Assembly (NCBI GenBank): GCA_020809705.1
Contig: CP085827.1
Coordinates: forward strand, 6,014,001-6,078,000
DNA: 64,000 bases
Direction of reading: 5' to 3'
DNA from: Calonectria ilicicola
Taxonomy: Eukaryota > Ascomycota > Sordariomycetes > Hypocreales > Nectriaceae
Within the stretch, counting starts at the first letter, position 1; every line of letters starts with the position of its first letter. The notes under the pieces are model-generated. The model had not been told where the DNA came from, did not search any database, and saw only the letters and a program-made list of their open reading frames with translations. The position numbers and the translations under genes are program-made. Of this stretch, positions 18,817-55,081 are shown one piece after another.

Positions 18817-21326
18817 CTACAGGCATTGCCAATAGTAATCATTCTGCTTTGTGCACGTGTACGGACTCTCGCACACCGTCGGGCCCGGCCAGCTAATACC
18901 ACCGCACTGCTGGTAATGGCTGGCTACCTCTGTGGTGGTCGGGGCAGTAGAGGTGGTCGACGATACTCTCGTAGTTTGTGTCGTAGAAGTTGTCGCGGAT
19001 GCCCTAGTGGTTGAAGTTGATAGAGTTGAAGAAGACGAAGACCCACCGCCACTGCTACCGCCTGAAATGGTCACCTTACCATAGAATACACCACGACCAT
19101 TTGTTCCTACAAACACGTAATTGGCTTCATTGCCGCTTCCTGCCACACGGCCACTGTCCACTGCACCAAATGTCTGACTGTCGCCTTGTACATCTGTCCA
19201 AGTAGATCCACCATCGGCACTGCCATACAATCGCTTTCCGTTGCTGCCTGTGCCGAATGCGTACAGGTTCCAAGAGGAAGAGCCTTTTCCGAGGGAAATC
19301 TTATGCGTGTCTGTCAGTGCTGTCGACACCTTTGTGAAGCTGGAGCCGTAGTTGGTGCTATGGAAAATTCCGACATCTGTGGACACGTAGAGCTCGCCAG
19401 CTGTAGTGGGGTGGGCTTCGATGTCACGAATGGCACCGGCCCCGCTGAGTGAGCCGCTCTGGGAGAAGCTTGAGGCAGTGTTTGAAGATACATAAAATGT
19501 GCTGCCAGACGCGGCGTAAAAGTATTTGTTGTCGCGCTTATCAGATGCGATAACGGCACCTGAGGGAAGGCTAGAAACAGACGCGAAAGTGGCGCTATTG
19601 GAGGATCGTACAACACCGCTTGACGAGGTGGACCACAAAATTGTGTCTGCATCAGCAGAATAAGCGACTTGACCACCATACTTAGAGGTGTCTGTTGCAT
19701 AGTTGATGTACCAAGAGGATCCACCGTTGCTAGACATGGCAACCATGTAGTTACCAGCTTCGTTGCCTACGCGAACGACATTGCTGACCTTGTTACCAGC
19801 GTAGTCGACACTGCTTGCGGTGGTCCACATAGGAGTATCCCAGGCTGAGTTTGGTGAAGTTCCCAGGTCAGACTGAGCCTTGAAGGTGAAGCCGCATTCA
19901 TCACCAACAGCAGCGAGGAGCTCGGTGCCTCCGGGAACAGACTTGACCTCTTGGACGGAGTACTCTTCGATTCCATTTGCAAGTGACTTGGTGGTGACTT
20001 TGGAAGATGTTCCCCAGTTACTCAAGTCATGCCCACCGTAAATTGTCAATCCAGTGCCATATAACCAATGGTTGCTGTCGTGGGGATTAATCTCGAGGCT
20101 CTCAATCATCCAGCCGAGCCATTTGGAGTCGACATCAAGAAAGTCAGTCTTGATCCATGGCGCCAGGGACACATCCATGGTGTGGTAACGGTCCATGGCG
20201 CCACTTGATCCCCATGCCCAAATTGGCTTCCAAGAGGCACCAGAATCAGTGGACCGGAAAAGTTGAGCATCAGGCCACCAAGAGTTTAAGCTGGCAACAA
20301 CCAATGTGCCAGGGTTTTGCATGTCAACACCAAGTCCACCAAAGCCAAAGTACAGAGAGCTCCCTGACACTGGAGTAATGTTGGTCCATTTACTCGATGC
20401 AATGTCGTATCGATACACAGCTCCCTGGGTTCCGTCATAGGGGCCTGTTCCATCTGAGTAGGTCAAGTACAGAGCCTTTTCATCAGGCTGCAAGCGACCC
20501 TTGTGGGGGAAGAATGTACCGGGTTGACCAGAAACAGCTTTCCACGTTGATCCAGCATCCTCAGAGACATATACAGACGCAGTGGTATTGTCAGCAGTGC
20601 CAACAAAAATACGAGAAGTTGCGCCGCTCGTGGTGCCCGAGGTTGAATCAAATGTGACAAAGGTAAGACCCTGTTTGTCACTGTTGTACCCGTATTGATC
20701 ATTTGGGTCTGGTGCATAGGTCCCAACTGCACTGAAGGAGGAAACCTTTTGGAAGCTCTGGCCACCATTTGTGCTCTTCCAAAGTCCATTTCCACTTCTA
20801 GCCCCAAAGTACACAATGTTTGAGTTTTTAGGGTCAACCGCCAAACGTTCACCTGTTCCTCGACCAGGCATATTGCCACCTACCTTGAAGGAAAGGTTCG
20901 TAAAGCTCCATGAGGCGCCTCGATTTGTACTTTTCATAATGGCCCCGTTGCTCGGATCCCAACTGTTAGTGTACATTCCAACAGCTGCATAAATAATGTC
21001 TGGGTTTTGAGGATCAAGCGCAAGAGCGTCAATGCCCCAGTTATGCCTAATGCCAGGGTCAGGGAATGAATGACTGCGACAGTGGAACTTGAGTCCTACC
21101 AGTTGTCACTATCTGCAATACCATCCGTGATTGGGGTCCAAGAGTCATCGCTATTGAGCTTGTAGATGCCTCCAATATCAGTTCGAGCATATGCTAGACC
21201 CTTTTCGGTAGGATGAAAGATGATGCCAGAGACAAAACCACCACCACCACCAATGCGAACATTTTGCCAGCTTGTGGCGGCCAAGGCAGGTGCCACAAGA
21301 CTAGTGATGAGACTAAGCAGCTTCAT
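18817..21326 (-). CDS. cel74a: xyloglucan-specific endo-beta-1,4-glucanase, GH74 with C-terminal CBM1
   Basis: Two exons, 21326-21100 and 21046-18817, with a 53-nt intron (GTAGGA...CTGAC...ATTAG); 818 residues. The signal peptide is [17 protein letters not shown]. The GH74 double beta-propeller follows, with its characteristic start [18 protein letters not shown] and [20 protein letters not shown], the segment [21 protein letters not shown] and repeated Asp-box-like blades ([15 protein letters not shown]). A Ser/Thr-rich linker leads to a CBM1 ([16 protein letters not shown]...WQCL, last ~36 residues). The length is close to the 838 residues of Trichoderma reesei Cel74A. It cleaves the glucan backbone of xyloglucan outside the cell, with CBM1 binding cellulose. 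The family and domain order are very clear; the gene symbol follows the T. reesei name. Confidence 0.95.
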
Positions 21327-22518: not shown

Positions 22519-22620
22519 TGATGAGACTGGGACTCGAACCCAGGAGGATTGCTCCATCAGGAAGTTGAGGTTGTTAAGGTGACCTTAACCTGACGCCATA
22601 ACCAACTCGGCCATCTCACC
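22519..22620 (-). tRNA. tRNA-Leu(AAG) with a 20-nt intron
   Basis: The sequence folds as a class II tRNA. The acceptor stem is GGTGAGA with TCTCATC (one G-U) and discriminator A. The A box contains TGGCCGAGTTGG, the long variable arm has GGAG...CTCC, and the T arm is CTGGG/CCCAG around TTCGAGT. The anticodon stem TCAGG/CCTGA carries the loop TT-AAG-G. The strand is continuous only after removal of 20 nt (22563-22582) at the canonical position one base 3' of the anticodon. Intron bases ACCTTAAC pair with GTTAAGGT of the anticodon region, as is usual in pre-tRNAs. The mature tRNA is 82 nt. It reads CUU leucine codons and, through inosine, CUC. Confidence 0.93.
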
Positions 22621-54944: not shown

Positions 54945-55073
54945 GGATCGATAGCTCAGTGGTAGAGGTGAGTTGAATTCAAATGTCTCAGATGCAAGTT
55001 CAAGCATATTAACAAGCTTCGCAGCGAGAGATTGCAGATCTCTAGGTCACGTGTTCGATCCACGTTCGGTCCT
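54945..55073 (+). tRNA. tRNA-Cys(GCA) interrupted in the D stem by a 57-nt intron-like segment
   Basis: Parts 54945-54967 and 55025-55073 join to a perfect 72-nt tRNA-Cys. The acceptor stem is GGATCGA/TCGGTCC, the D arm GCTC-AGTGGTA-GAGC, the anticodon arm AGAGA-TTGCAGA-TCTCT, the variable loop AGGTC and the T arm ACGTG-TTCGATC-CACGT. All invariant bases (T8, A14, G18, G19, A21, T33, T54, T55, C56, A58) and the Cys-specific U73 are present. The intervening 54968-55024 lies between positions 24 and 25; because both the 5' part and the insert end in AG, the junction is ambiguous by 2 nt. A and B boxes are intact and a T-run follows. Standard scanners would miss it or call it a pseudogene. Whether the insert is removed in vivo is unknown. 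Confidence 0.8.
54968..55024 (+). other. spliceosomal-type intron candidate inside tRNA-Cys
   Basis: 57 nt, starting GTGAGT and ending TTCGCAG, with TTAAC at 55009-55013, 11 nt before the end, as a possible branch site. The length is in the middle of the range of protein-gene introns in this window (47-71 nt). It also contains the palindrome TTGAATTCAA (54973-54982). It does not sit at 37/38, where the eukaryotic tRNA splicing endonuclease cuts. Confidence 0.6.
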
Positions 55074-55081
55074 TTCTTTTT
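55074..55081 (+). terminator. Pol III terminator of tRNA-Cys
   Basis: TTCTTTTT directly after the discriminator base, on the sense strand. Confidence 0.75.

Follow-up and report, generated by a model that had tools for sequence, protein, structure and literature searches.

Nuclear introns are normally handled by two separate machineries: those of tRNAs are removed by a protein endonuclease and those of mRNAs by the spliceosome. A tRNA-Cys(GCA) gene of the fungus Calonectria ilicicola, whose D stem is interrupted by a short insert with GT...AG ends, raises the question of whether a nuclear tRNA can depend on the spliceosome instead. This gene lies in a stretch of 64,000 nucleotides (contig CP085827.1, positions 6,014,001 to 6,078,000), referred to here as the window. 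A preliminary description of the locus had stated that excision of the insert leaves a flawless 72-nt tRNA-Cys(GCA) with U73, A and B boxes and a T-run, and that the insert measures 57 nt, sits between positions 24 and 25 and carries GTGAGT, TTAAC and CAG. Direct reading confirms both statements (Table 1). Exon 1, merely 23 nt long, and exon 2 add up to 72 nt ending in U73; once the insert is taken out, all 21 stem pairs are standard, with U4-G69 as a wobble. Moreover, the position of the insert leaves both the A and the B box exonic. Because AG is present at both ends, the boundary of the insert can slide by 1-2 nt, and it is the GT-AG rule that sets the register at 54968/55024.

Table 1. Positions of the interrupted genes and their parts; locations without a contig prefix are window positions.
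Feature	Location	Strand	Basis or layout
tRNA-Cys(GCA) gene with GT...AG insert	54945..55073	+	direct sequence reading
tRNA-Cys(GCA) exon 1, positions 1-24: acceptor 5' strand, D arm to G24	54945..54967	+	
A box TAGCTCAGTGG, uninterrupted	54952..54962	+	sequence
57-nt GT...AG insert, proposed U2-type spliceosomal intron	54968..55024	+	
GTGAGT, resembling a 5' splice site	54968..54973	+	GTNAGY in 5/5 Cys copies
TGTCTC block, same in 5/5 inserts	54984..54989	+	insert alignment
TTAAC, resembling a branch site	55009..55013	+	YTAAC in 5/5 Cys copies
CAG, resembling a 3' splice site	55022..55024	+	Cys insert alignment
tRNA-Cys exon 2, position 25 to U73; anticodon GCA at 55034-55036	55025..55073	+	
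B box GTTCGATCC	55053..55061	+	sequence
TTTTT, resembling a Pol III terminator	55077..55081	+	sequence
tRNA-Pro(CGG), tandem copies (L055, L057)	C4:986015-986164 and 986253-986402	-	
tRNA-Pro(CGG), third copy (L056)	C7:2457987-2458135		
U6 gene (L053)	C1:6580508-6580615 and upstream		AACGAT / 55 nt / ACAGAG
U6 gene (L054)	C3:884181-884349		GAAGAT / 58 nt / TAGCAT

The unspliced window gene is missed by ARAGORN and, at the gathering score, by Rfam. In a virtual excision, every GTNNGH...HAG stretch of 45-77 nt with an inner YTRAY was removed from either strand of the window. Among the 432 resulting variants, a single one yielded an ARAGORN tRNA across the junction, and it was precisely the excision of 54968-55024. 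The pattern GGTAGAG-GTNAGY-gap-CAGCGAG matches the window once and none of 100 shuffles. The insert had also been likened to the mRNA introns of the window. This comparison stands for one intron backed by a homologous protein, that of a GH74 gene (21047-21099), which is 53 nt long and has CTGAC starting 16 nt before its end; it does not extend to the other candidates, since our heuristic scan of the window returned 19 candidate rows of which this one alone is protein-backed, some of the others being plainly alternatives or spurious. The closest relatives of the GH74 protein, at 82-87% identity, are found in Dactylonectria, Neonectria, Thelonectria and Ilyonectria. Another tRNA of the window, at 22519-22620 on the minus strand, has an intron in the anticodon region and a long variable arm, and is probably a tRNA-Leu(AAG), judging by its likeness to locus L154.

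The window is part of contig C3 in a genome of 69.9 Mb and 12 contigs, which we searched for tRNA-Cys genes with a 29-base pattern around the anticodon, allowing up to 3 mismatches. Eight places were found, and none in the reversed control. Five of these genes are interrupted, all between positions 24 and 25 (contigs C3, C9, C7, C1 and C6), and the pattern of exon 1 followed by GTNAGY retrieves exactly these five with no control match. The remaining three are uninterrupted: two genes in tandem on C4, which match the spliced window gene at all 72 nt, and a copy on C1 with an additional D-loop base and compensated stem changes. A run of five or more T follows within about 20 nt of all eight genes. 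Alignment of the tRNA-Cys genes, which the preliminary description had called for, thus places the insert in five copies. An assembly error, the alternative named there, is excluded, since the same architecture recurs on five contigs in copies that have diverged from one another. On the other hand, the three uninterrupted genes mean that the interrupted copies are not obviously needed. BLAST comparison of the 1.2-kb flanks of the five interrupted genes gave no match between copies, all 12 rows being the self matches that served as control. The flanks are otherwise unrelated, save that in the other four interrupted copies (L002-L005), though not in the window copy, CATCCA starts 11-12 nt ahead of the gene, where it is possibly an upstream Pol III element. 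Two adjoining tRNA-like genes on C6 (L132 and L144, C6:676243-676574) have a Pro-like D arm and a different acceptor stem; ARAGORN reads L132 as a Cys(GCA) tRNA whose intron lies at 33, but its body is a different one and we did not count it among the tRNA-Cys genes; L144 receives no ARAGORN call.

The five interrupted tRNA-Cys genes display very different constraint in their exons and their inserts. Variation touches only 4 of 72 exon columns but 34 of the 57 in the insert (Fisher P 9e-12), and any two copies differ at 0-4 of 72 exon positions and at 15-23 of 52-57 aligned insert positions. All 21 cloverleaf pairs are retained in the five genes. A single compensated pair is seen, in the T stem of the C6 copy, because most pairs do not vary at all. 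Within the inserts, GTNAGY, YTAAC and CAG are kept in every copy, and the ten core splice-signal columns (GT, AG, TAAC and the final AG) are invariant. We found no sign of the relaxed exon constraint expected of pseudogenes. This pattern of drifted inserts, unchanged exons, and kept pairs and signals fits genes matured by excision and not disrupted copies; the simplest reading of the alignment would be that selection acts both on the mature tRNA and on the ability to remove the insert. The earlier argument that paired stems speak against an old pseudogene is borne out in all five copies. The preliminary description had also reasoned that intact tRNA-Cys genes elsewhere, together with a lack of spliced junction reads, would point to a recently disrupted copy. 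Such genes exist, but recent disruption is contradicted by drifted inserts lying between near-identical exons.

One feature of the Cys inserts is not accounted for by splicing. Apart from the splice signals, the TGTCTC block is the longest invariant run, at 6 columns (permutation P 0.002). In the RNAalifold consensus of the Cys precursors, its UCUC pairs with the GAGA that opens exon 2, and one may speculate that this modelled pairing keeps the anticodon stem open until splicing. The same consensus is a non-tRNA fold with no compensatory pairs, and we rejected a conserved RNA fold of the Cys precursor on that account. Single-strand folds of the eight precursors gave z-scores of -0.4 to -2.2 relative to shuffles.

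A second family of interrupted genes came from a scan for other tRNAs, made with four patterns that combine a branch site with a B box at AG-to-B-box distances of up to 34, so that further cases may exist with other branch motifs, other B boxes or longer distances. The patterns gave 46, 28, 6 and 26 matches, compared with 13, 7, 8 and 11 in the reversed control; the first of them, CTAAC plus AG plus a spaced B box, provided the lead to tRNA-Pro(CGG). Virtual splicing with ARAGORN covered 39/46, 28/28, 3/6 and 10/26 of the matches, and the remaining 7, 3 and 16 were judged by eye. Besides the Cys positive controls, only L039, a Pro locus, gave a tRNA across the junction. Several alternative calls were obtained for it, among which excision of GTAAGT...AAG gives Pro(CGG). 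In the Rfam search for tRNAs, 63 of 2542 candidates were scored, and the sequences of 40 of these were retrieved. As expected, there was no match in viral contigs (two patterns) or in prokaryote genomes (one pattern). The genome also contains a dispersed tRNA-like repeat, CTAACTAATC...GAGGGTTCGAACCC, with variants (e.g. L160 and L165). It received no ARAGORN call in the stretches tested and possibly represents tRNA-derived elements.

The three tRNA-Pro(CGG) genes follow a common layout, in which GGCGTTTC is followed by GTAAG(T/C)...CT(A/G)AC...(C/A)AG and then by GGG, a 24-nt intron and TATGCC. In all three, the GT-AG insert (54, 54 and 53 nt) lies inside the anticodon, between C34 and G35, and an ordinary 24-nt intron follows position 37. 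Each gene has a run of five or more T downstream. ARAGORN reads the unspliced loci as Thr(CGT) with an intron of 77-78 nt; after removal of the GT-AG insert, its call changes to Pro(CGG) and the intron to one of 24 nt at 37. Exon variation is again slight, at 2 of 72 columns, which face each other in one compensated acceptor pair, compared with 27 of 54 columns in the GT-AG inserts. The canonical intron varies at 3 of 24 columns, fewer than the GT-AG insert (P 0.002). Leaving out the T13-T21 position, 20 stem pairs are present in all three copies.

The Pro D arm, searched with up to 1 mismatch, occurs at 22 genomic places, namely the three CGG genes and 19 others. Among these others, ARAGORN identifies 12 as Pro(AGG) and 4 as Pro(TGG); in all 16, an intron of 10-19 nt follows GGG. 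L127 has an AGG-type Pro body and an Ala call, and L132 and L144 are not Pro-like. The D arm and C73 of tRNA-Pro(CGG) are common to 17 AGG/TGG tRNA-Pro genes, and the Thr(CGT) genes L059, L066 and L067 have a different body and A73. None of the 22 places holds an uninterrupted tRNA-Pro(CGG), a search that a more diverged body could escape.

The U6 genes provide a further point of comparison. Two genes stand above the Rfam cut-off, 47 of 4404 candidates having been scored, and both carry a GT-AG intron, at different places. Both introns have the form GTAAGT...ACTAAC...CAG and contain a B-box-like GGTTCGA, and the spliced U6 cores agree save for one T and the 3' end. U6 is described as a Pol III product (PMC10484740). 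Hence, if the fungus has no further U6 gene, its spliceosome must act on Pol III transcripts.

Altogether, the tRNA inserts resemble short fungal mRNA introns. GT...AG ends fall at boundaries that restore the product in 5/5 Cys and 3/3 Pro genes, GT-AG being one of the possible registers given the 1-2 nt ambiguity. The 5' splice site is close to GTRAGT and conforms to GTNAGY in all eight inserts (GTGAGT, GTTAGT, GTAAGC and GTAAGT, two each). A YTRAC motif is likewise found in all eight, starting 16 nt (Cys) or 15 nt (Pro) before the insert end; fungal branch sites are given as 6-36 nt from the acceptor (PMC5832005). The full fungal branch consensus RCTRAY is present in 1/5 Cys inserts (the window copy reads ATTAAC), 3/3 Pro inserts and 2/2 U6 introns. 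Lengths of 53-58 nt and the branch distances match both the one protein-backed mRNA intron of the window and the fungal range. Both families have the boxes, cloverleaf and T-run of functional tRNA genes, and the inserts lie at 24/25 (Cys) and 34/35 (Pro), not at the 37/38 of canonical tRNA introns. We know of no instance in fungi in which the usual tRNA-splicing enzyme serves these positions.

These inserts are very probably U2-type (GT-AG) spliceosomal introns in nuclear tRNA genes, a reading of the sequence that is strengthened because tRNA-Pro(CGG) was found only in interrupted form and both U6 genes found carry introns. The suggestion in the preliminary description that a nuclear tRNA needs the spliceosome is in line with the near-identical exons and the drifted inserts with kept splice-type signals. 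What the sequences show directly is the anatomy, the copy number and the pattern of constraint. On the proposed reading, the tRNA-Cys gene would be transcribed by Pol III from its own A and B boxes to the T5 terminator; the spliceosome would recognise GTGAGT, the YTAAC branch site and CAG in the precursor; and removal of 57 nt would join G24 to C25 in a normal tRNA-Cys. The same excision would take place in the four other interrupted tRNA-Cys genes. In tRNA-Pro(CGG), spliceosomal excision at C34/G35 would create the CGG anticodon itself, leaving the second, ordinary intron at 37/38 to the tRNA splicing endonuclease. It is likely, at a somewhat lower confidence, that nuclear tRNA genes have a third, spliceosomal class of intron, with tRNA-Pro(CGG) encoded in this fungus solely by genes that have two introns of two kinds, so that one tRNA would need both splicing machineries.

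Points that tell against the spliceosomal reading are the branch motifs of four of the five Cys inserts, which fall short of RCTRAY, the 23-nt first exon, the three intact tRNA-Cys genes and the TGTCTC block. Several other explanations also have to be weighed against it. The interrupted Cys copies could be dead or decaying, with the intact copies supplying tRNA-Cys and with exon identity due to recent spread or gene conversion. The genome does contain three intact genes, and two match the spliced window gene exactly. However, the large pairwise differences between inserts imply that the interrupted copies are not recent, and intact copies acting as donors in gene conversion should erase the inserts. 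In addition, the T-stem change of the C6 copy is compensated, and no intact tRNA-Pro(CGG) was found as a conversion source. We regard decay as improbable. Alternatively, the tRNA splicing endonuclease and a ligase could act at non-canonical positions to excise inserts whose GT-AG look is incidental. Ectopic tRNA introns are indeed known from a red alga, nucleomorphs and archaea, and many of those of Guillardia are presented in the same sources as having no defined bulge-helix-bulge (PMC4090602, PMC3978253). Of the four central pairs of this motif, the Cys inserts reach 2-3 and the Pro GT-AG inserts 4, 4 and 3, a scoring without power, as ten canonical controls reach 1-3 with no discrimination. 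Against this, the Pro helices are without their flanking pairs (0-1 of 3), the best scores of the five Cys precursors fall in the mid-range of shuffled inserts, and there is no consensus structure with compensatory support for the Cys precursor. More importantly, GTNAGY, YTRAC and AG are conserved in two unrelated tRNA families, and an endonuclease has no reason to keep them. Removal by the endonuclease is accordingly very improbable in our judgement.

The remaining alternatives touch on the identity of the products. If the tRNA-Pro(CGG) loci were truly tRNA-Thr(CGT) genes with one canonical intron of 77-78 nt, as the ARAGORN labels of the unspliced genes would have it, only the Cys case would stand. 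Yet they share D arm and C73 with the AGG/TGG tRNA-Pro genes, the genome has separate Thr(CGT) genes built on a Thr body, and a single canonical intron leaves the conserved GTAAGY, CTRAC and AG/GGG unexplained, so that we give this assignment almost no credence. Just as hard to credit is the proposal that the interrupted genes make products other than tRNA, e.g. stable 5' or 3' fragments, with the insert as a processing signal. It could draw on the TGTCTC shared by all five Cys inserts, which splicing alone leaves unexplained, but the production of fragments does not need the cloverleaf pairs that are retained across both exons.

Regarding the origin of the spliceosomal introns proposed here, the Cys inserts have in common their length (54-57 nt), TGTCTC and much of their 3' end, and for this reason a single gain before dispersal is likely on sequence grounds. 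The GT-AG insert of tRNA-Pro sits at a different site, which suggests a separate gain. The three uninterrupted tRNA-Cys genes would reflect either intron loss or descent from copies that were never interrupted. The interrupted C6 copy and the uninterrupted C1 copy share a T-stem variant, which hints at gain or loss after these two split, or else at convergence. Further copies of the 57-nt element, also proposed as a check, were found in the form of the four diverged tRNA-Cys inserts; the insert-only search, made with the window insert and 5 flanking bases, matched itself alone at E up to 10. A mobile origin was set aside on this result, which is weak, as the same search missed the four other tRNA-Cys inserts. 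Fungal introner-like elements (PMC4457414, PMC9860276) also bring new spliceosomal introns into fungal genes. They are described in these papers as multiplying into many genes; diverged relatives of the window insert may exist elsewhere too, given that the search was blind to the four known ones.

Fungal mRNA-type introns in U6 snRNA genes were reportedly described by Tani and Ohshima in 1989 and by Canzler et al. in 2016. Such introns are known from work cited in PMC5832005, and they resemble the present ones in being short GT-AG introns of small-RNA genes transcribed by Pol III. In our case, the host is a tRNA, and the B box is exonic, unlike the intronic B-box-like GGTTCGA of U6 in this genome. 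The introns of fungal U3 snoRNA genes, as presented in PMC5832005, are similar in their GT-AG ends, their CTRAC branch site and, in some genomes, their mixture of intron-bearing and intronless copies. That paper singles out U3 and U6 as the small structured RNAs in which, alone of their kind, introns are known to be frequent, and tRNA is not named in that statement. Canonical tRNA introns, removed by the endonuclease at 37/38, also interrupt tRNA genes and are present in tRNA-Pro here, but the inserts at 24/25 or 34/35 differ from them in position and in their mRNA-type signals. The ectopic tRNA introns of Cyanidioschyzon merolae, nucleomorphs and archaea share the non-canonical positions, including the D arm. 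In the accounts cited, they have bulge-helix-bulge motifs or are short inserts (3-24 nt in Guillardia), and not GT-AG ends with a branch site (PMC4090602, PMC3978253). Eukaryotic tRNA genes are described as limited to one intron in the tRNAscan-SE 2.0 paper (PMC8450103), in contrast to the two that tRNA-Pro(CGG) would have, and the non-canonical intron step of that program is presented there as serving archaeal candidates. Across the open-access literature, with subscription journals mostly outside this coverage, we found spliceosomal introns reported in fungal U6 and U3 and none in a tRNA. A need for the spliceosome in making a functional tRNA, probable from these sequences, would be new for tRNAs, and it would carry the mRNA-type introns of fungal Pol III small-RNA genes into the tRNA class.

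If spliceosomal introns do mature these tRNAs, the nuclear division of labour between the two splicing machineries would be breached in a functional gene class, and the supply of tRNA would be tied to spliceosome activity. With U6 interrupted as well, the spliceosome would control its own RNA together with part of the tRNA pool. Since the tRNA finder used here passed over the window gene and took the Pro genes for Thr, genes of this class may go unnoticed in other fungi. Because a single genome has copies of the same tRNA with and without the intron, intron gain and loss can be tested directly. Spliceosomal introns would then be able to enter, to persist in and perhaps to be lost from Pol III genes of only 72 nt.
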